This document shows positions 15,518 through 25,140 of a DNA stretch of 26,313 nucleotides, piece by piece. The stretch covers positions 1 through 26,313 of the IMG/VR virus record IMGVR_UViG_3300009085_000621; one strand, written 5' to 3'. Both the position numbers and the translations under genes were made by a program. The stretch's first letter is position 1, and every line of letters begins with the position of its first letter. Source of the stretch: a virus. The notes below the pieces were generated by a model. It had not been told where the DNA came from, did not search any database, and worked only from the letters and a program-made list of their open reading frames with translations.

Positions 15518-16045
15518 ATGCAAAGCAATGGTATAGTCCGCTTTGGGGCAAGATCGTTTAAATGCGGTCTGTTTGCGCTAATCGTGGCAAGTATTTTGTC
15601 AGGGTGCGTTACGCAACGCCGTTGCTTGGAAAAATACCCGCCGCTGCCAGCTGACACCGTCATTAAGGAAATCGTCACCTACCGGGACACGACCGTTTAC
15701 ATTGCCCTGCCGGCTGATACCCTAACCGATTCAGTTTTTATCCAAGTACCGTGTCCCGGTCTTGACGATTACGTGAGTGACACCGTGCGGGCTGAACAGA
15801 AATTAGCAAGTGCAGCGGCATGGATCGAACACCGAAAACTAAAGGTCGAACTGGCTATGAAGGAAGCCGTACTTGAATTTACGATCGACAGCATAGCGGC
15901 GACGAGGACGAAAACCATCACTATTACCGAAACGGTTTACGTCGATAAAAAAGTTGTGCCACCTTTTTACCGTGCCAGTTTGTTTGTAAATATTATCCTA
16001 ATCCTGCTTTTTATCATTGGCATAATTTTATCTTTGCGTCGTTAG
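15518..16045 (+). CDS. One-piece (unimolecular) spanin
   Basis: The 175-residue protein has an N-terminal lipoprotein signal with lipobox ILSGC (Cys30), the CVTQRRCLEKYPP start common in Bacteroidota phage lysis lipoproteins, a beta-rich and then helical periplasmic part, and a C-terminal transmembrane helix (SLFVNIILILLFIIGIIL) ending in RR. A lipid anchor in the outer membrane plus an inner-membrane helix is the design of a u-spanin such as T1 gp11, which fuses the two membranes at the end of lysis. It follows the holin-like gene and precedes a terminator. Confidence 0.8.
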   Translation: MQSNGIVRFGARSFKCGLFALIVASILSGCVTQRRCLEKYPPLPADTVIKEIVTYRDTTVYIALPADTLTDSVFIQVPCPGLDDYVSDTVRAEQKLASAAAWIEHRKLKVELAMKEAVLEFTIDSIAATRTKTITITETVYVDKKVVPPFYRASLFVNIILILLFIIGIILSLRR

Positions 16046-16087
16046 ACCAAAGGTTTTCATCTTCGTTAATGCAAATTTCGGTCAGAG

Positions 16088-16113
16088 AGGGCGGCTCACA
16101 AGGTCGCCTTTTC
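16088..16113 (+). terminator. Terminator after the lysis genes
   Basis: AGGGCGGCT (16088-16096) pairs with AGGTCGCCTT (16101-16110; some G-T pairs) and runs into TTTT. It lies 43 nt after the spanin stop and fits the end of the late transcript. Confidence 0.55.
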
Positions 16114-16810: not shown

Positions 16811-16912
16811 GCAGACACCTCCGACAGTAATGGTAGTAAGGCGAATGGATTGTACTGCTTCGTAGCAGTCACCTCTTACAGTTATGGTAGTCGGGCTAAT
16901 GGATTGAACTGC
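16811..16912 (+). repeat. Two direct repeats of 48 bp, 54-bp period
   Basis: The copies at 16811-16858 and 16865-16912 share GCAG-ACCT, ACAGT, ATGGTAGT, AATGGATTG and ACTGC with about ten differences. Both start GCAG and end CTGC, so each can close on itself or pair with the other. They lie inside the RNA-like element. Confidence 0.8.
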
Positions 16913-16927
16913 ACCTTTTAATTAATG
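16913..16927 (+). repeat. 15-bp repeat, copy 1
   Basis: ACCTTTTAATTAATG recurs exactly at 17454-17468, just before the third early gene. The second copy ends 4 nt before a start codon, so the motif may be a leader or translation element. Confidence 0.6.
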
Positions 16928-17016
16928 CGGGGCGCTTCGGTTCGACGCCGACGCCGGTGGCTAACCGTAAATACATTACGGACTAACTTTTTAATTACTC
17001 ACTAACACTTACGAAG

Positions 17017-17217
17017 ATGACAACACTCAAAGGCATTATGGTACAGGAACTGAAAGATTACTTTCTTGCAAACTATGGTCATATTTCTTTGGAACTAAAC
17101 AACAAAGAAATTTATGACTTGCTCAAGCGCTGGAACTTTAGGGGTTACAGCCTTAAAAGGTGTGCCGATCTGCTTGCTGACCACCTTTTAGCTAATGGCG
17201 CAGAAGCGCAGGAATAA
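17017..17217 (+). CDS. Small early protein of unknown function
   Basis: The 66-residue helical protein has charged segments (ELKDYFLANYG, KEIYDLLKRWNFRGYSLKRCADLLADHLL). No family is recognised; the YSLKRCADLLADHLL part might form a helix-turn-helix-like pair, but this is weak. It is the first gene after the control region and carries the ACGAAG-ATG start context. Early position and size suggest a host-takeover or regulatory protein. Confidence 0.7.
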   Translation: MTTLKGIMVQELKDYFLANYGHISLELNNKEIYDLLKRWNFRGYSLKRCADLLADHLLANGAEAQE

Positions 17218-17235
17218 CAATTAAATATTACGACA

Positions 17236-17454
17236 ATGACAATTAACGAAGCTATTCGGGCAATCGTAACGTATGAAACGTTACCGCCACAGATTGACTA
17301 CACGAAGCCGTGGGAATACAAGGCACGGAAGGCACAGGAACATATTGACCGGCAGCCGTTCAATATTAGGGCTGCGATCAATTCGCAGATTCGCAAGCAG
17401 ATCGCCGAATACTACGGTGAGAACGGCGCAGCACAATACGACAAACTTTTTTAA
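17236..17454 (+). CDS. Small early protein of unknown function
   Basis: The 72-residue helical, charged protein (MTINEAIRAIVTYETLPP ... AAINSQIRKQIAEYYGENG) is not recognised. Its start has the variant context ACGACA-ATG instead of ACGAAG-ATG. It lies 18 nt after its neighbour and is followed by TTTTTTAACC, part of the repeated early leader style. The shorter frame at 17273 in another phase is a shadow. Confidence 0.65.
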   Translation: MTINEAIRAIVTYETLPPQIDYTKPWEYKARKAQEHIDRQPFNIRAAINSQIRKQIAEYYGENGAAQYDKLF

Positions 17455-17468
17455 CCTTTTAATTAATG
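17454..17468 (+). repeat. 15-bp repeat, copy 2
   Basis: This is an exact copy of ACCTTTTAATTAATG at 16913-16927. It lies directly before the start of the coiled-coil gene at 17473, in place of the ACGAAG motif used by other early genes. Confidence 0.6.
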
Positions 17469-17472
17469 TAAA

Positions 17473-17706
17473 ATGAACGCAAAACGAAAAGTACAAATTG
17501 AAAAAATCAAGTCGCAGATTGACGACCTAAAATCAGAACTTGAAAGTCTGCAAAGTGACGAGCAGGAATCATTTGATAATATACCTGAAAATTTGCAGGG
17601 CGGTGAAAGATATGCGGCATCCGAGCAGGCGCTTGACAATTTTGATAACGCCATTAGCAGCTTGGATGATGTTATTTCAAACCTTGATGATATAATTGAG
17701 AATTAA
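17473..17706 (+). CDS. Small acidic coiled-coil protein
   Basis: The 77-residue protein has an N-terminal Lys/Glu coiled coil (QIEKIKSQIDDLKSELESLQ), the conserved-looking middle DNIPENLQGGERYAASEQAL and an acidic helical end (NFDNAISSLDDVISNLDDII). Proteins of this type are common small genes in phages of anaerobes and Bacteroidota, but their function is unknown to me. The start has no ACGAAG motif. Confidence 0.75.
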   Translation: MNAKRKVQIEKIKSQIDDLKSELESLQSDEQESFDNIPENLQGGERYAASEQALDNFDNAISSLDDVISNLDDIIEN

Positions 17707-17732
17707 TTTTTAACCATTTAATTTTTACGAAG

Positions 17733-18197
17733 ATGAAAACAATTGAAATGATCAACCCGGATTTCTTTCTTGATGCTTACCAACAGCAGAAACAAGAACT
17801 GCGCAACTTAACAATGAAGATCATGCTTACACGTATGGTCTTGCAGAACCTTGCTGACATAATCTCACCGAAGCAATGGAAGCTTGAAAAATACGGCTGG
17901 TCGTGGACACGGTTCGTCGCAAATGAAGGCACGACCGTCGCAGACCTTGACCGGCTGGCAAAGAAGCTTTCAATGATTTTTCGTAATAATCCAAGCAAGG
18001 AGATAATGAAGACCAGCATCGTGTTCAGCTGGTATATTCGCCTGAAGCTTGACGACAAGGTGCTGCCGGCTGTGCTGGTTGAACTGGTCGTAGGGAATAC
18101 CGAAAGCTGCGAACTGGTTGAAAAGGAAGTAATCGAAAAGCGTTATGAACTTACCGGTTACTGCAAGCAACTGCAAGAACGTGAATACCTTGTTTAA
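17733..18197 (+). CDS. Early protein of unknown function
   Basis: The 154-residue, mostly helical protein (MKTIEMINPDFFLDAYQQQKQEL ... LTGYCKQLQEREYLV) has no recognised domain. It carries the ACGAAG-ATG context after TTTTTAACCATTTAATTTTT. Its end is followed by a long inverted repeat (18205-18250), so its transcript may stop there. Confidence 0.7.
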   Translation: MKTIEMINPDFFLDAYQQQKQELRNLTMKIMLTRMVLQNLADIISPKQWKLEKYGWSWTRFVANEGTTVADLDRLAKKLSMIFRNNPSKEIMKTSIVFSWYIRLKLDDKVLPAVLVELVVGNTESCELVEKEVIEKRYELTGYCKQLQEREYLV

Positions 18198-18204
18198 TTA
18201 ACCC

Positions 18205-18260
18205 GGCTGGGATGCGTGAAATACCGTATGCCGTAAGTGCGATCCCAGCCACAACTTTTT
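18205..18260 (+). terminator. Stem-loop GGCTGGGAT/ATCCCAGCC followed by T-run
   Basis: GGCTGGGAT (18205-18213) and ATCCCAGCC (18242-18250) form a perfect 9-bp stem with a 28-nt loop that has its own small palindrome (ATACCGTAT). ACAACTTTTTT follows, as in an intrinsic terminator, but the loop is long. It resembles the hairpin at 20256-20298 and could be a regulatory RNA site instead. Confidence 0.5.
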
Positions 18261-18291
18261 TAACCTTTTGTTTCACTAAATAAAAACGAAG

Positions 18292-18678
18292 ATGAGTAAA
18301 TGCGAATTAAAAGTAGAACGCCCGGCAGACTTTCAGCCGGCACTTTGGGAAGCACTCAACAGCAAATTAATGAAGGTGCTGACCGAGAATTTTGAAATCG
18401 ACGCCACGAGTGACGAAGCCTGCAACTGGCTTTTTTACGAGTTCCTCTCTGCACGTCAAATAAAGGACGTTGCGGTAATAGTTTTCGGCAATGACCTGCC
18501 ATACACCTTAAAGGTAGTAACTAACCTGCGCCTAACGGGCGACGGTGCTTGTCCTAACTGCGGCAGCAATGACCGGGCTGACATAACGGGTGACGTAAAG
18601 AATGAAGAAACTTACGGCACTTACTTTGAGATAATCGGCTACAAGTGCAACAGCTGCCTACATAAAGATTACAGATGA
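18292..18678 (+). CDS. Zinc-ribbon-type early protein
   Basis: The 128-residue protein has a helical N-terminal part (PADFQPALWEALNSKLMKVL) and a C-terminal zinc ribbon with Cys87, Cys90, Cys119 and Cys122 (CPNCG ... CNSC). It probably binds zinc and perhaps nucleic acid. It has the ACGAAG-ATG context and overlaps the next gene by 4 nt (ATGA). Confidence 0.7.
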   Translation: MSKCELKVERPADFQPALWEALNSKLMKVLTENFEIDATSDEACNWLFYEFLSARQIKDVAVIVFGNDLPYTLKVVTNLRLTGDGACPNCGSNDRADITGDVKNEETYGTYFEIIGYKCNSCLHKDYR

Positions 18679-18968
18679 AGCGCCGTTATCTTTTAACACG
18701 TAACCGTCGGCGAAGCAAGGCACGTGAACGCCTTGCCCGCATACGCAGCACGGGCGAACTCATTCGCCGGCTAAAGAACTTTCAGGATGGCAGGGTATTC
18801 ATAGTTGATACCCAGCCCCTGAAATGGAATCCACCTTGCCTACGTGTCATTGAGAACCACGAAGGCGTATTGCTTTACGCTAAAGAATTAGCAACTTTAG
18901 CAAGCGCTTTGGAACGCAAATTAATCATACGCACAGAATCTAAACAACTCAATTATTTTATTTACTAA
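18675..18968 (+). CDS. Small basic early protein
   Basis: The 97-residue protein has a strongly basic N-terminus (MKRRYLLTRNRRRSKARERL), which suggests binding to nucleic acid, followed by a beta-like middle (GRVFIVDTQPLKW). It starts in an ATGA overlap with the zinc-ribbon gene, so the two are probably made together. No family is recognised. Confidence 0.65.
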   Translation: MKRRYLLTRNRRRSKARERLARIRSTGELIRRLKNFQDGRVFIVDTQPLKWNPPCLRVIENHEGVLLYAKELATLASALERKLIIRTESKQLNYFIY

Positions 18969-18985
18969 ACCAAATTTTAACGAAG

Positions 18986-20095
18986 ATGTACACAGATGAA
19001 AGGGCTTTATTAGCCAGCAAATTAGAAACTACCCTCACGGGTAAATCACGTTCAATCAGCACAGCTATTGAACAGATTAACCGCACCGGCACACTTCTTG
19101 ACGACTACCTTGTACCGGCGCAGACCATTGACTTCCGCTTACGCCGGGGCGAGCCCGACGAAACTGTGCGGCTCACCTTTAAGCCTGACACTTACCACGG
19201 CGAACAGTTTGATCCGTTCCGCATCCATGACCACGCACTCGGACAGATTGCCGACAAGCTTTCAGTCCCGCCGGTTTACCTCAAGACACTTACGAAGGGA
19301 ACAGACTGGCAGAAGAATCTTGCGCTGACCATAATGCAAACCACCACCGACAATACAACACGTGAACGGGTGCTGGTACGCACGGTTGAAGGTGAGGTCA
19401 GGGGCTTTTTAAGTGACAAGTACCGCCGCCTGAACTCCATGCAGATTTTCATTGCCTTTCTGCAGGCTGCGCAGGCGACCGGTAGCGTGCTGGTAGATGC
19501 ACACGCCGGCGAAACAAAAGGCTTCCTTGAAGTGATCAACCCGAACATCGTTGAGTTTGACACGCCGTTCAATGGCAGGAACTTTATGGCAGTAGGCGCA
19601 CGCATACGCAACAGCGACTTCGGCGACGGGGCTTTGGAAGTTTACCTCTTTGGCTTGCTCGTAAAGTGTATGAACGGGCTGGTCGGTCAGAGTATGCTGC
19701 GGGAATTTCATCTTGGCGGGCGCATACCGGATGACATACGCATCAGCGAAGAAACTTACCGCAAAGATACCGATGCGAAGGCAAGCTTGGTAGGTGACGT
19801 AATGAAGCAGATTTACTTACCCGAAACTACCGAGAACCTTATTGGCAGAATACAGGGCGCTTCAGCAAAGCCGGTTGACCTTGTTAAGGAAGTTGAAAAG
19901 CTGCCGAAGCTTGGCTTAACGCTGGGTGAAAGCGAAGCCGTTGGTAAGGTGCTTATGGAGAACGATCCTAACAATGGCTTGCAGGGTAACCCGACACTTT
20001 GGAAGCTGGTCAATGGCTTGACAGCCGTGGCACGTGACGCCAAGCCGGAACGCAAGCGGGAACTTGAATTAATTGCCGCAGAAATGTTGAAATAG
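18986..20095 (+). CDS. DUF932-like phage/plasmid protein
   Basis: The 369-residue protein matches the DUF932 (phage/plasmid-like TIGR03299) pattern: FRIHDHALGQIADKLSVPPVYLKTL, GEVRGFLSDKYRRLNSMQIF, PFNGRNFMAVGARIRNSDFGDGAL, CMNGLVGQ. Such proteins are frequent in phage and plasmid replication regions and are suspected to act in DNA metabolism, but no reaction is established. It carries the ACGAAG-ATG context. It ends with a helical Lys/Glu-rich tail and is followed by a strong hairpin (20122-20152). Confidence 0.8.
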   Translation: MYTDERALLASKLETTLTGKSRSISTAIEQINRTGTLLDDYLVPAQTIDFRLRRGEPDETVRLTFKPDTYHGEQFDPFRIHDHALGQIADKLSVPPVYLKTLTKGTDWQKNLALTIMQTTTDNTTRERVLVRTVEGEVRGFLSDKYRRLNSMQIFIAFLQAAQATGSVLVDAHAGETKGFLEVINPNIVEFDTPFNGRNFMAVGARIRNSDFGDGALEVYLFGLLVKCMNGLVGQSMLREFHLGGRIPDDIRISEETYRKDTDAKASLVGDVMKQIYLPETTENLIGRIQGASAKPVDLVKEVEKLPKLGLTLGESEAVGKVLMENDPNNGLQGNPTLWKLVNGLTAVARDAKPERKRELELIAAEMLK

Positions 20096-20121
20096 TAAAT
20101 ATTTGTGTAATTTTACTAATG

Positions 20122-20152
20122 AGTAATGGCGGTAAAATGCGCCGCCGTTACT
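20122..20152 (+). terminator. Strong hairpin after the DUF932-like gene
   Basis: AGTAATGGCGG (20122-20132) pairs with CCGCCGTTACT (20142-20152) over 11 bp with one G-T pair and a 9-nt loop. Only TATTT follows, so it is a probable terminator or 3' end-stabilising structure. Confidence 0.55.
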
Positions 20153-20351
20153 TATTTAACATTTACCAAATGATTAACGTTTACAAAATAAGTTTGCGTT
20201 ACAGGCGTGCCAAGTTTGCACACGTGAATAGCACAATGAGATTTAGGGCGTGGATTGTGCGGCTGGAGATTACATTTTGGGATCATTCCAGCCGTGCAAA
20301 AATGCCCGTATTTTGGAAGTTTTACATTACACTGAATTAAAATCAAACGTT
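20153..20351 (+). other. Intergenic segment with a second hairpin
   Basis: TGTGCGGCTGGA (20256-20267) pairs with TCCAGCCGTGCA (20287-20298; two G-T pairs) with a 19-nt loop. The core GGCTGG/CCAGCC and the loop letters GAT/GGGATCAT are like the hairpin at 18205-18250. No clear promoter was found. An ORF starting at 20119 runs through both hairpins and looks spurious. Confidence 0.5.
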
Positions 20352-20600
20352 ATGGTTGTAGACAAAAGCAGATGGAAATATGATTACGATAATCGGCGTG
20401 ATTACAGGGCATATAACTACGTTGCACAATTCGGGAGGGCTCATTTTACTTTAGAATGCCCGTTCTGTTTTAAACGTGTGACAGCCTATGTGTGGAGTCT
20501 TGCGGGCGGCGGTAAAAAATGCCCCGACTGCGGAGCTATTCATACGTCCTTTGGTTCATTCCCATTAATCAATAAAAGTAAAGATGACACAGAAACTTAA
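20352..20600 (+). CDS. Zinc-ribbon-type small early protein
   Basis: The protein (82 residues from ATG 20352) has a Tyr/Arg/Asp-rich N-terminus (RWKYDYDNRRDYRAYNY) and a zinc ribbon with Cys36, Cys39, Cys57 and Cys60 (CPFC ... CPDCG). A longer frame from 20250 has no good start and would run through the hairpin, so 20352 is preferred. It overlaps the next gene by 17 nt. The function is unknown; nucleic acid binding is possible. Confidence 0.65.
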   Translation: MVVDKSRWKYDYDNRRDYRAYNYVAQFGRAHFTLECPFCFKRVTAYVWSLAGGGKKCPDCGAIHTSFGSFPLINKSKDDTET

Positions 20601-20805
20601 GCCGGTATATTCCATTACCGCCAAAGATGACGTTACAGCAACTGCAATTTATTCCTGCCTGAAAACACTTTGTCAGGACTGGCAGCTGATGGATCATTAC
20701 GGGGTAATATGGCGCAGACTTCGAGATGAAGGCTCATACCGGGATGCGAAAGCAATAATCAAAAAGCACAACTTAATTAAAAGCAAGTACGAACGTAAAC
20801 ACTAA
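20584..20805 (+). CDS. Small early protein of unknown function
   Basis: The 73-residue protein (MTQKLKPVYSITAKDDVTAT ...) has a basic C-terminus (AIIKKHNLIKSKYERKH). The start context GTAAAG-ATG is a relaxed form of the early start motif. No domain is recognised. It overlaps the zinc-ribbon gene by 17 nt. Confidence 0.6.
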   Translation: MTQKLKPVYSITAKDDVTATAIYSCLKTLCQDWQLMDHYGVIWRRLRDEGSYRDAKAIIKKHNLIKSKYERKH

Positions 20806-20816
20806 TTAAAACGAAG

Positions 20817-21932
20817 ATGAAACAAGACGAATTAACAGTCAGTCAGATCAAGGCTATGCACTTTGCGGACGACGCCTTGATGTTAAGCCCTTACCCATTG
20901 TACCGCTATGAGTACAAGGGTGACCGCTTTTATTACTACACTAACCCGGAAGAATTACCATACCAACAGGCGGCAGCGCCCGCAGGTGTGACACTTGTCC
21001 CGGAAGTACACTTTGCAGTCGGGGTGACAACACTCACCCGGCGCACAATCCCGCAGAACGAAGGGCTTGTAAAGTGGATTGCAAATATGGGTTACGACGC
21101 TGCCATTGCTTACCGTGACCAGCGTGCAAAGTATGGCAGCTTGATGCACACCTGCTACGCCACGATGCTCATAAAAAAGGTTTTCAATCTTGACCTTTTG
21201 CCTGAAGTTGTTCACAACTACTGCGCTGTGAATAAGCTTGTGGTGAACGAAGCCGTTTGGGTGGATGACCTCAAGCAGGACTTACTTGCCTTTGCAACGT
21301 TCCTGCATGAATACCAAGTGAAGCCGCTGGCGATTGAACTTTCACTCGTTTCGCCCCGGCTTGGCGTGGCTGGTACGCAGGATTTGTTCTGCGAAATGGA
21401 CTATGAAGAAAAGGGTTACTTTGGTGAGGTTTATGCAAGCGGCATTAATAAAGGTCAGCCGAAGGAAACAAAGCGCACCGTTCGCACGCTGGCTATTGTG
21501 GACTTCAAAAGCGGGCGTGACACAACCGGCGGCATACATAATGCTGCGCAGCTGGCAGCCCTCAAGATGATCTTCAAGGATAACTACCCGGCATACGCTG
21601 ACCGTACCATACGGCTTTACAACTTTCACCCGAAGGACTGGCGAAAAGTGCCTACCTATACGCTGGTTGATCAGTCGGACGCCTTTAGCGAAACAGCCGT
21701 AATGAACATCATTGGTCTGTACCATGAATTTGAACCTGCGCCCGAAGAAAAGACGGTAATAGAAATGTTTGGCGTAATTAACCTTGACCAGCCCGGCGGC
21801 GAGAACTTCACAACCAAAGTGATTAAGGAAATTGTGCAGGCTAATGTTGATATTGAGAACACACCTTATCAGCAGTATGACTACGCAGACTTTTATTTTA
21901 ATGACGAATCCGATGAAGGCAGCAGAACGTAA
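20817..21932 (+). CDS. PD-(D/E)XK nuclease (RecB/Cas4-like exonuclease fold)
   Basis: The 371-residue protein has the PD-(D/E)XK pattern: GSLMHTCYA (residues 107-115, a G-x3-H type start motif), Glu174 in AIELSLVS, Asp189 in GTQDLFCEM, Asp229 and Lys231 in IVDFKSGR, and Gln245 in AAQLAALK. These residues bind Mg2+ and cut DNA. In phages such enzymes resemble RecB-like exonucleases used for recombination or host DNA degradation. It has the ACGAAG-ATG context and lies shortly before a Gp3/RDF-like gene, which could be its DNA-binding partner. Confidence 0.8.
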   Translation: MKQDELTVSQIKAMHFADDALMLSPYPLYRYEYKGDRFYYYTNPEELPYQQAAAPAGVTLVPEVHFAVGVTTLTRRTIPQNEGLVKWIANMGYDAAIAYRDQRAKYGSLMHTCYATMLIKKVFNLDLLPEVVHNYCAVNKLVVNEAVWVDDLKQDLLAFATFLHEYQVKPLAIELSLVSPRLGVAGTQDLFCEMDYEEKGYFGEVYASGINKGQPKETKRTVRTLAIVDFKSGRDTTGGIHNAAQLAALKMIFKDNYPAYADRTIRLYNFHPKDWRKVPTYTLVDQSDAFSETAVMNIIGLYHEFEPAPEEKTVIEMFGVINLDQPGGENFTTKVIKEIVQANVDIENTPYQQYDYADFYFNDESDEGSRT

Positions 21933-22263
21933 CTTCATTAGGTTTACACGTAGCAGCATAATAGTATATCAGCCAGTAGTAAGGGAACTTGCGCTGGCTG
22001 ATTTACAGCTGATACACGTTGGTCAGTACCCTGTCAAGTGGAATTGGTACATTGCTTTTTTCTCTAACGATTCATCACTTTTCCCATGGAAAGGGACGGG
22101 AGGTGCGCCACGCTGGCTACACCAAGTAAACCCGCCAGCTGAAACACTTTACGCATATAACTGGACAGCACTTACGGGTGATTTTACAATCGGTAAGGAC
22201 GTTGCAACTTTTAACAATTTACTTTATTTTAAACTTAACAAATACGAAGATGCGAAACAGTAG
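21913..22263 (+). CDS. Early protein of unknown function
   Basis: The protein (116 residues from ATG 21913; ATG 21901 is also possible) is rich in aromatic residues (VKWNWYIAFFS, FPWKGTGGAPRWLHQ). No domain is recognised. It overlaps the nuclease gene by 20 nt and the next gene by 14 nt. The latter overlap contains the whole ACGAAG-ATG signal of the next gene, so that motif works from inside this gene. Confidence 0.65.
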   Translation: MKAAERNFIRFTRSSIIVYQPVVRELALADLQLIHVGQYPVKWNWYIAFFSNDSSLFPWKGTGGAPRWLHQVNPPAETLYAYNWTALTGDFTIGKDVATFNNLLYFKLNKYEDAKQ

Positions 22264-23224
22264 AATTTTAAGACAGAACATTCCAGCGCAGAACACCCGG
22301 TTACCACTAATCGGGCGCATACGCTGCGGCGAGAAAAGGATCAACAGCGCCGGCAAAGAATACCCGGTGAGCCTTGACTACTTTGTTGCAACTGGCAGCT
22401 ATGCCAGCAAGTTCGACGAAGTTTACACCAAGCCCGAACGCATACAGATTGTTTTCATCAGCGACGATGACTTCCAAAGCTGCTATGAAGAATGGGACGG
22501 GCGTGATAAGGAAGGGCGCAGGGCTGGTTATGGCGACGGCGTTACTTACTGGCTTTGGGATTATGCCGGGAAGGAAGAATACAAGCAAACCACCGACCGT
22601 AACGCCGTGCTTGAGTTCAGCAAGAGCCATAACATCAAATGGCGGCAGGTGCTGACCATTAACTTCATACTCCCTGCAATCAAGGGCGTCTTTGGCGTTT
22701 GGCAATTTCAAACCGGCGGCGACAAGAGTTCAATCAGCGCCATACGGAATACCTTTGACGAGATCAAGGAACAGGCTGGCACGGTTGTAAATATCCCGTT
22801 TGACCTTGTAGTAAAAAAGGTCACCAGCAACAAACCGGAGGCGAAAAGCGTCTACCCGGTCGTGAGCCTTATCCCAAACATCAGCGCCGAGAATATGGAG
22901 ACGCTGCGAGCCTTTTTTGAGGCTGGGCTGGACATACGCAAGCAGGGCATACTGAACGAACAAAAGCTGACAGCCTTGCAGGAACACGCCGTAGTTGAGA
23001 TACAGCCGCTTGAAGAAGCGCCACCAAAGCAGCCAGCCGCCAAGCCGCCCAGCGAACCGGTCACGCATGACGATTACGTGCTGCGGCAGATTGCCGCCTG
23101 CACTACGCTTGACCAGCTGCGGGAACTTTACAGCAATGAGCCGGGCTTATTCATGGAGGATGAGAACTCACCGCTGGGCAAAGCTTACGCCAGCCGGTTT
23201 AATGAATTGCAGAATGGAAACTGA
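22250..23224 (+). CDS. Gp3/recombination directionality factor-like protein, possible ssDNA-binding role
   Basis: The 324-residue protein from ATG 22250 has IGRIRCGEKRINSAGKEYPVSLDYFVATG, KPERIQIVFISDDDFQSCYEEWDG, RRAGYGDGVTYWLW and NFILPAIKGVFGVWQFQTGGDKSSI. This order resembles the phiC31 Gp3-like family (recombination directionality factors and related phage proteins). No integrase is seen nearby, so a role in DNA recombination or ssDNA binding with the RecB-like nuclease is more likely. After a Pro-rich linker (about residue 280) a short helical end follows. The ACGAAG-ATG context fixes the start. Confidence 0.6.
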   Translation: MRNSRILRQNIPAQNTRLPLIGRIRCGEKRINSAGKEYPVSLDYFVATGSYASKFDEVYTKPERIQIVFISDDDFQSCYEEWDGRDKEGRRAGYGDGVTYWLWDYAGKEEYKQTTDRNAVLEFSKSHNIKWRQVLTINFILPAIKGVFGVWQFQTGGDKSSISAIRNTFDEIKEQAGTVVNIPFDLVVKKVTSNKPEAKSVYPVVSLIPNISAENMETLRAFFEAGLDIRKQGILNEQKLTALQEHAVVEIQPLEEAPPKQPAAKPPSEPVTHDDYVLRQIAACTTLDQLRELYSNEPGLFMEDENSPLGKAYASRFNELQNGN

Positions 23225-23225
23225 C

Positions 23226-24041
23226 ATGGCAAAACTGCGCAGCGTGAATACGCACTTTTGGCAGGACGACTACATTTGCGAACTGCCAGCCGAACAGAAA
23301 TTGTTATTTCTGTATCTGCTTACCTGCCCGCTTTCAAACATTGCCGGCGTTTACGAGATCACCCGCCGGCAGATTTGCTTTGACACCGGGCTGACGCCTG
23401 AACAGCTTACGGCAGCTATAACAAAGTTCATAGCCGACCGCAAGTTATTCTACGCCGATAACTACATTATGCTGGTTAATCACCATAAGAACCAAAAGCT
23501 TAACCCGTCAATGGAGAAGGCACGCCGTATGATTATCAAGGCGTTACCGAAGCGGGTGCATGATATTTACGAAAGTTGTCTGGTACAGGATGCCGACACC
23601 ATGCGACAGGATGGGGACACCATGCCGCCATCCTGCCTAAAAGATAAAGATAAAGATAAAGATAAAGATAAAGTGGAAGTTAAAAGAAAAGCTTTCGCTG
23701 CCGAACTTTATCATAAGGATTATCTTAAGTATGGTACACAAATGCTGCAAAACTTTTGCAATTACTGGACTGAACTCAATGCCAGTAAGACCAAAATGCG
23801 CTACGAACTGCAACTTACTTGGGAACTGCCCCGGCGGCTTGCCACGTGGGCGGCACGTGAAAACATATCAACGACCGCCAAGAAAAGCGAATTGCTCACC
23901 TACAACGAATACCTTGAAGTTATTAACAAGGGCGGCAGGGGTGAAGATTACCAAGTTGTGAAGCAGGACGGTAAAACGTTTTGGGTACACGTAACGAATG
24001 TTCACAAATACACAAACGAAGATGAGCAAAAAGAAACATAG
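23226..24041 (+). CDS. Replication initiator-like protein with winged-helix N-terminal domain
   Basis: The protein (271 residues from ATG 23226; ATG 23214 is an alternative) starts MAKLRSVNTHFWQDDYICEL and continues with KLLFLYLLTCPLSNIAGVYEITRRQICFDTGL, typical of phage replication/DnaD-like wHTH proteins. A Lys-Asp repeat linker (about residues 139-149) separates this from a helical C-terminal domain (LTWELPRRLATWAARE). Such proteins bind the origin and help load helicase. It lies in the replication block before a DnaA-like gene. Confidence 0.75.
   Translation: MAKLRSVNTHFWQDDYICELPAEQKLLFLYLLTCPLSNIAGVYEITRRQICFDTGLTPEQLTAAITKFIADRKLFYADNYIMLVNHHKNQKLNPSMEKARRMIIKALPKRVHDIYESCLVQDADTMRQDGDTMPPSCLKDKDKDKDKDKVEVKRKAFAAELYHKDYLKYGTQMLQNFCNYWTELNASKTKMRYELQLTWELPRRLATWAARENISTTAKKSELLTYNEYLEVINKGGRGEDYQVVKQDGKTFWVHVTNVHKYTNEDEQKET
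23641..23672 (+). repeat. Short tandem repeat (GATAAA)n
   Basis: About five copies of AAAGAT/GATAAA encode the Lys-Asp linker of the replication protein. The 6-bp unit allows length change without frameshift. Confidence 0.85.
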
Positions 24042-24306
24042 GAAGTTAAAGGCGCAGGTATTTGACCTGCTCAAGAACCAGCCCCTCACCCGTGAGAGTG
24101 ATCGGGAACTGGTTGCGCTTTACTGGCAGATTGAACAGCCGATGCTATTTGCCTTTCGCCCAGCCGAAGCCGTACTGCGTGCCTACATCAATGCTGAACT
24201 TACAAGCGTTGAAAGCATCACACGCACCCGGCGGCAAGTGCAAAAGGAACACCCGGAATTAGGACGCTGGGGCAAACAGGTATTAACTAATTTCCCAGCG
24301 CCATGA
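24022..24306 (+). CDS. Small early protein of unknown function
   Basis: The protein (94 residues from ATG 24022) has a basic start (MSKKKHRKLKAQVFDLL) and a conserved-looking end, SVESITRTRRQVQKEHPELG, of a kind seen in small phage proteins near replication genes. The start carries ACGAAG-ATG inside the end of the preceding gene (20-nt overlap). It overlaps the next gene by 4 nt. The function is unknown; the helical basic end suggests DNA binding. Confidence 0.7.
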   Translation: MSKKKHRKLKAQVFDLLKNQPLTRESDRELVALYWQIEQPMLFAFRPAEAVLRAYINAELTSVESITRTRRQVQKEHPELGRWGKQVLTNFPAP

Positions 24307-24845
24307 CCAGCCAGCAAAGGATAGTATTCAGGGGCAGACACTTCACGTATGGTGAAGTGCTTGCCTTTGCACAATTTTACCACCTGCACCACGGCGAGAA
24401 CAGCCCGGATAACTTGCTTGCAAACTACTTCCGCTGGAAGGAAATTTCAAAAGAGTTTTCGGCGACCGCCCGGCGGCTGCTTGTTGTTGAAGAAACGGTG
24501 GTGAACTATTACGGGCTTGACATGGCAGACGTCAGGGGGAAGCGCCGGTACAAGGAACTGGTCAGGGCACGGCAGGTGATTGCATACCTGACGGTGCACT
24601 ATGCTTCGCAGAACGCTATTACCGGCGTTATTGGCATGAACCGTAACAACGTGCAGTTCAGTAAGACTAAATGCGGTATCCTCATGGAGACCGAAAAGCT
24701 TTTACGGCAGGAGGTTGCTGAAATTGAACAGCGCCTCAAGCCGCAACTACTTGAAATTGACGAAGAAGTAAAACGCCTTGAACAGCAAGAGGCAAAACGT
24801 TTTAACGAAGATGAAACAGCTGAAGCAAATACAACAGGAACTTGA
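24303..24845 (+). CDS. DnaA domain IV-like DNA-binding protein
   Basis: The 180-residue protein has, at residues about 62-124, the pattern of the DnaA C-terminal domain: VEETVVNYYGLDMADVRGKRRYKELVRARQV, AYLTVHYA, and IGMNRNNVQFSKTKC in place of the GRDHTTVxHA signature. That domain reads DnaA boxes. No AAA+ domain is present. The C-terminus is a Glu/Lys coiled coil. It could help recognise the phage origin or act on the host DnaA boxes. It starts in an ATGA overlap and overlaps the next gene by 35 nt. Confidence 0.7.
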   Translation: MTSQQRIVFRGRHFTYGEVLAFAQFYHLHHGENSPDNLLANYFRWKEISKEFSATARRLLVVEETVVNYYGLDMADVRGKRRYKELVRARQVIAYLTVHYASQNAITGVIGMNRNNVQFSKTKCGILMETEKLLRQEVAEIEQRLKPQLLEIDEEVKRLEQQEAKRFNEDETAEANTTGT

Positions 24846-25140
24846 CGCCCTGCGCAAACAGGGAAAGGACGCAGTTTTCACGGAGCAGCGCAAAATTGAG
24901 AAGCGCATTTTGTTTCTTGAGATGTGCCGGCTTTACCTTGAAACAAAGCCCCGTGAGGAGTTCATAAAAAAGCAGCTTGAATCGATTGGCTTTATAGTGG
25001 GCACACTTGAGAGCCGCTTTGGTCAGTGGGCAAGCCACCGCACGGGCGGGAACAAAGAACTGCGCCGGGAGTATAATGCTTTGTGCCAAATACCAAAGTA
25101 CAAACAGCAGATCAAGACGCTGAAATTTCTGCCTGACTGA
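24811..25140 (+). CDS. Coiled-coil early protein of unknown function
   Basis: The 109-residue protein from ATG 24811 is helical and basic (LKQIQQELDALRKQGKDAV, IEKRILFLEMCRLYLETK, ELRREYNALCQIPKYKQQI). It has an exact ACGAAG-ATG context inside the 3' end of the DnaA-like gene, which picks this start over the frame opening at 24778. It may act together with the DnaA-like protein, whose end is also coiled coil. Confidence 0.65.
   Translation: MKQLKQIQQELDALRKQGKDAVFTEQRKIEKRILFLEMCRLYLETKPREEFIKKQLESIGFIVGTLESRFGQWASHRTGGNKELRREYNALCQIPKYKQQIKTLKFLPD

Follow-up and report, generated by a model that had tools for sequence, protein, structure and literature searches.

A candidate antisense RNA at the late/early gene boundary of a phage and its complementarity to an early start motif

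Shutoff of early genes in phages is mainly known as transcriptional control or as the work of protein repressors. T4 RegA is a protein repressor that silences many early phage mRNAs near their start codons, and the C4 RNA of P1/P7 is one of the phage antisense RNAs with a single target. In bacteria, 3′ UTR-derived sRNAs combine a seed with the intrinsic terminator that ends a coding transcript, and they pair with the translation-initiation regions of several mRNAs. The phage antisense RNAs sar of P22 and OOP of lambda act on one gene each, and sar interferes with the initiation of ant translation (PMC12197685). For cluster K mycobacteriophages a repeated motif beside the starts of non-structural genes, the start-associated sequences (SAS), was described in 2011 (PMC3203893), and its role was still open in papers from 2024 and 2025 (PMC11373665, PMC12699233). 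In Flavobacterium johnsoniae, initiation is favoured by A at positions −3 and −6 (PMC6847099).

The locus analysed here belongs to a virus group whose hosts are probably Bacteroidota bacteria. With the Kozak-like context of these bacteria it shares A at −3 and −6, whereas its motif is a far more specific 6-mer that only some of the early genes carry and that has an antisense counterpart. As for sar, OOP and C4, a phage-encoded RNA would pair with phage mRNA; those RNAs hit one gene, whereas here the starts of at least eight genes fit one seed, which changes in step with its targets. A multi-target phage antisense RNA would be new compared with the single-target ones, and a search of the open-licence literature found no description of a phage RNA whose single seed serves many starts of the same phage. 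The build of seed and terminator is that of 3′ UTR-derived sRNAs, while the targets of the putative RNA would be the phage's own early genes. Shutoff of multiple early mRNAs near their starts is also the task of T4 RegA, which is a protein, whereas the candidate described here is an RNA. SAS are alike in being a repeated motif by non-structural gene starts and, in subcluster K1, in having one reversed copy off gene starts; they differ in sequence and host and contain a Shine-Dalgarno core. The SAS consensus GGGATAGGAGCCC near starts is not matched by the motif described here, so that the architecture alone resembles SAS, and no antisense function is proposed in the SAS literature that we compared.

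The start motif of the early genes

The window, i.e. the whole virus record of 26,313 bp, carries its late genes from left to right up to position 16045, including a radical-SAM gene, a head maturation protease and a portal-like gene. The early module begins at 17017 on the same strand. Ahead of it, at 16818–16915, inspection by eye revealed an imperfect direct repeat with two units of about 43 bp, CACCTCCGACAGTAATGGTAGTAAGGCGAATGGATTGTACTGC and CACCTCTTACAGTTATGGTAGTCGGGCTAATGGATTGAACTGC.

The 9-mer ACGAAGATG occurs nine times in the window against 0.13 copies expected by chance, and none of the shuffles reached nine. Eight of the nine copies lie on the plus strand, each at the start of an early gene and exactly where the initial annotation had reported them. 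The same annotation had noted a near-miss, ACGACA, before the start at 17236, which was found as well.

17011–17019, plus strand: start motif, gene 17017–17217 (66 aa)
17230–17238, plus strand: near-miss ACGACA-ATG, gene 17236–17454
17727–17735, plus strand: start motif, gene 17733–18197; longest match to the antisense element (ACGAAGATGAAAAC)
18286–18294, plus strand: start motif, gene 18292–18678
18980–18988, plus strand: start motif, gene 18986–20095 (phrog_1362); conserved in L002 and G004
20811–20819, plus strand: start motif, gene 20817–21932 (phage exonuclease, phrog_298); conserved in L002 and G004
22244–22252, plus strand: start motif, gene 22250–23224 (Gp3-like, PF18897); conserved in L002, L004 and G004
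24016–24024, plus strand: start motif, gene 24022–24306; within the end of a DnaD-like gene
24805–24813, plus strand: start motif, gene 24811–25140; within the end of gene 24303–24845 (DnaA C-terminal-like)

The bare hexamer ACGAAG is less strongly enriched in the window (30 copies vs. 12.3 expected); it is the fusion of ACGAAG to the ATG start that matters, rather than the hexamer alone. About half of the early genes do not carry the start motif. Head, tail and lysis genes had been said to lack it, and indeed none of the late genes of the window has ACGAAGATG. The nearest resemblance among them, ACGAAGAATG with one base too many, is seen at the start of gene 1763–2884 in the late half, which encodes a B12-binding radical-SAM protein and is retained in G004, G008, G020 and G031. 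Nor is the motif equally frequent within genes or at late genes, the outcome named in advance as speaking against it: in the related genome G004 four of the five same-strand copies are early-gene starts. Three copies had been placed inside the 3′ end of an upstream gene; all three overlap an upstream frame, but for the copy at 22244 this frame (21832–22263) is without a family match.

ACGAAG abuts the ATG directly, occupying −6 to −1 with A at −3 and −6, and thus agrees with the Kozak-like Bacteroidota context. The view that it is not a Shine-Dalgarno sequence holds, as it is without GGAGG and no stretch of at least 6 nt of CATCTTCGT is present in the 16S, 23S and 5S rRNA of E. coli, which is rRNA from outside the Bacteroidota. 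On this E. coli result pairing of the motif with rRNA was rejected.

The antisense copy at the late/early boundary

The ninth copy of ACGAAGATG, overlooked in the initial annotation, lies on the minus strand at 16066–16058, outside the interval 17011–24813 considered there. The strand of the genes reads CATCTTCGTTA at this place, 12 nt past the last late stop codon and just ahead of an intrinsic terminator. Eight exact 9-nt matches to this seed are present at early starts in the window.

15518–16045, plus strand: last late gene, 175 aa (ORF list), upstream neighbour of the antisense element; the G004 homologue has the same place and is 50% identical
16029–16036, plus strand: TATCTTTG, similar to the −7 box TAnnTTTG of Bacteroidota; may be a promoter for the element, but G004 has not conserved it
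16058–16068, plus strand: antisense seed CATCTTCGTTA, exact complement of TAACGAAGATG
16085–16113, plus strand: intrinsic terminator directly 3′ of the seed, 12-pair stem (terminator scan); same place in L002, G004 and G018

A small gene on the minus strand at 16066 was considered and rejected: the frames in the window and two relatives have unequal lengths (10, 67 and 12 codons), and what lies upstream is the terminator hairpin, so that the minus-strand copy was not taken as a gene start. An Rfam search of the window, L002 and L009 revealed no family above the gathering score. According to predicted foldings the seed is mostly open or in a loop when the RNA is short, and partly paired when it is longer.

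The strand of this copy bears on whether an RNA-binding protein of phage or host, comparable to T4 RegA, recognises the motif, the boundary copy being a decoy or a chance occurrence. A position at early start codons would suit such a repressor, as is generally known for RegA. Nevertheless, the transcribed strand at the boundary carries the complement of the site, whereas a protein needs the site in the same sense, and we regard this explanation as the least probable of the alternatives weighed here.

L002 and G004, the latter judged to be a complete genome by its 127-bp end repeats, are divergent relatives which share the early module of the window. In both of them the order late stop, antisense seed and terminator recurs, with exactly one antisense copy between the last late gene and the terminator and with 10 nt of the seed invariant; in an alignment of the three late/early boundaries no invariant block is longer than CATCTTCGTT. 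For the three lineages, an antisense 9-mer would fall in the boundary region by chance with a probability of 0.004, 0.004 and 0.0004 per genome, and in G004 the boundary copy is the only antisense copy. ACGAAG at the starts 18986, 20817 and 22250 is preserved in L002 and G004, where the proteins are about 60–75% identical and the flanks have diverged. The phrog_1362 gene of G004 is an 80-codon remnant joining the two ends of the gene, with the start motif intact (L009 397–639, minus strand). In L004, with about 90% identical DNA, two starts have changed to ACGAGG and ACGAAA while gene 25819 has gained ACGAAG; single sites thus come and go.

A second seed and the wider family

A search of this portal family reported 262 relatives, 80 of which were retained. 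Forty-two records with related portal genes were searched for the start motif; six of them contain one copy each and none contains a series. One of these records, G018, has a different early module with repeated start motifs of its own, AACAGAG and GCAAAGAGATG, the latter found by listing 8-mers enriched at starts. A search for the antisense of this motif revealed one outstanding same-strand place, GTTTTCATCTCTCTGTTG, located between the last late gene, which it adjoins, and a terminator. The putative RNA at the late end of G018 has a different seed, CATCTCTCTGTTG, which matches the starts of G018 itself. It is exactly complementary to CAACAGAGAGATG at start 31613, pairs with the GCAAAGAG copies with one A–C mismatch, and also matches AACAGAG in other early genes, farther from the start codon and at variable distance. 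Within 28,675–34,482 of the oriented G018 record at least nine early starts carry GCAAAGAG or AACAGAG, at variable distance to the start codon. AACA[AG]AG or GCAAAGAG is present at 11 of 68 starts in G018 compared to 0–2 in every other genome, whereas ACGAAG-ATG is confined to genomes with the first seed, so that motif counts separate by seed class. Judged from these sequences, seed and targets changed together in G018, and two seed classes are strongly supported, the second of them from this one genome.

Pairing of the seed was quantified by a duplex test of the seed only against the genome's own early starts (top third), with 200 shuffled seeds for comparison. When the entire RNA with its terminator was used, the terminator stem dominated the duplex energies and made them uninformative; the calculation was therefore repeated with the seed alone. 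Early-start pairing reached z values of −6.75 in the window, −4.6 in L002, −6.6 in G004 and −9.0 in G018, and the late starts of the same four genomes gave values between −0.14 and −0.97. In a matrix of nine elements and nine genomes, elements paired best with the early starts of their own genome (p 0.003; 0.026 when distinct seeds alone are counted); for late starts no clear preference of this kind was seen (p 0.15; 0.08 with distinct seeds).

An unbiased scan for CAT sites that have a terminator behind them and pair fully with three or more starts yielded five matches. Four are the boundary elements of the window, L002, G004 and G018, and the fifth, in G008, overlaps its own start; shuffled seeds gave 0–3 matches per round. 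Since the scan was run once the elements were already known, it demonstrates specificity rather than independent discovery, and in G018 three of the four fully paired starts lie outside the proven early region.

If ACGAAG were merely a favourable Kozak-like initiation context which has spread among early genes, the antisense copy being unrelated, its location at exactly −6 to −1 would be accounted for, as would A at −3 and −6, bases known to increase initiation in F. johnsoniae (PMC6847099). The known determinants, however, require neither C at −5 nor G at −4, and it would be left unexplained why three lineages have the antisense copy at the same fixed position and why G018 has a different yet matching seed. 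We therefore consider this explanation improbable.

A T-rich stretch, a CAT and a variable seed also separate the last late stop from a terminator in five other genomes whose late and early genes are in line (G020, G030, G034, G038, G013) and in the fragments L019 and L024; this suggests that the boundary layout is general in the family. In the five genomes the seed is only weakly complementary to the early starts (early z −1.3 to −3.2), and G030 and G038 show equally good pairing at late starts. No boundary element was seen at the late end of G008, G031 and G042, in which the early genes are opposed to the late genes. The repeated hexamers ACGGCA and GACGTA of G031 have no antisense copy at the late end and were rejected as start motifs, since they look like sequence inside frames. 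G008 (IMGVR_UViG_3300037486_000228, oriented 22,700–33,000) has a portal 95% identical, yet a different early module on the opposite strand, and whole early modules appear to have been exchanged between these phages.

All genomes in which the element was seen have their early genes behind the late genes on one strand. This would also be expected if early transcription started inside the last late gene and seed and terminator formed an attenuator in the early leader. Promoter-like boxes are indeed located upstream of the seed, TATCTTTG at 21 nt in the window and TATATTTG at 29 nt in L002, but none is kept in G004, and an attenuator acting in cis would have no need to match start codons as far as 9 kb downstream; we rate this arrangement as unlikely, slightly more so than a mere initiation context. 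The boxes in the window and L002 may instead belong to a promoter of the element itself, in which case a different timing of the RNA would be possible.

Searches beyond these genomes revealed no further cases. A scan of the collection for WWWAAACGAAGATGAAA returned scattered hits without any new genome in which they cluster, bacterial genomes contained no relatives, a search with a G004 protein yielded no further members, and both motif and element are absent from the distant phages P2559S (first 23 kb only) and TCUEAP2.

A putative RNA switch and start-associated sequences

According to the model that we favour, the start motif would be the landing site of an RNA encoded by the phage itself. 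The 3′ end of the late transcript, or a short RNA of about 60–90 nt from there, would carry the seed CAUCUUCGUU, followed at once by the intrinsic terminator. The seed would pair with ACGAAGAUG, comprising the start codon and the preceding 6 nt, in at least eight early mRNAs and would thereby block ribosome binding at these starts. With late transcription on, the RNA would shut off the targeted early genes together.

Typical features of an antisense sRNA are present, namely seed complementarity to multiple mRNAs, an intrinsic terminator after the seed, and co-variation of seed and targets, the latter in one genome. Start motifs, the complementary seed, the terminator, the fixed late/early position, conservation and the joint change in one relative are directly visible in the genomes. 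From this evidence we consider it likely that pairing with the boundary element is what the start motif is for. A trans-acting antisense RNA probably switches the early genes off once the late genes are on; that a stable RNA is expressed, that its pairing represses and that it acts late we infer from this arrangement, with less confidence in repression and late timing than in pairing.

The initial annotation had offered two roles for the motif, a translation signal or the target of a regulator sorting early from late mRNA. The terminator-linked antisense copy and the co-changing seed support the regulator target, whereas a pure translation signal leaves this copy unexplained; the candidate regulator would be an RNA rather than a protein. 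Nevertheless, as ACGAAG has the A at −3 and −6 that favours initiation, the motif may be both a good start context and a target, and the two roles are compatible.

A comparable arrangement was found in mycobacteriophages. Four K1 genomes contain 13–16 forward SAS copies and one reversed copy, with one mismatch, in the loop of a predicted stable hairpin.

Anaya 59870, Adephagia 58682, Angelica 58634, CrimD 58835 (records L252–L255): reversed SAS forming the loop of a predicted very stable intergenic hairpin

The K3, K5 and K6 genomes have no comparable reversed SAS, which makes the K1 parallel a lead and not a proof. In ZoeJ (K2) the reversed copy abuts the start of a minus-strand gene, and Aminay (K7) has no such hairpin.

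Only tentatively, and as a reading that we hold to be possible rather than probable, we propose an RNA switch at the late/early junction whose seed is complementary to much of the early regulon, seed and targets being swapped along with early modules, and a separate origin of the same principle in mycobacteriophages that would explain their start-associated sequences. The antisense reading offers a concrete and testable idea for these SAS, and any phage genome can be screened for its signature, many start motifs combined with one antisense copy ahead of the late terminator. If true, many start codons would be controlled at once by a single RNA, an inexpensive and rapid switch that fits hosts rarely using Shine-Dalgarno pairing.
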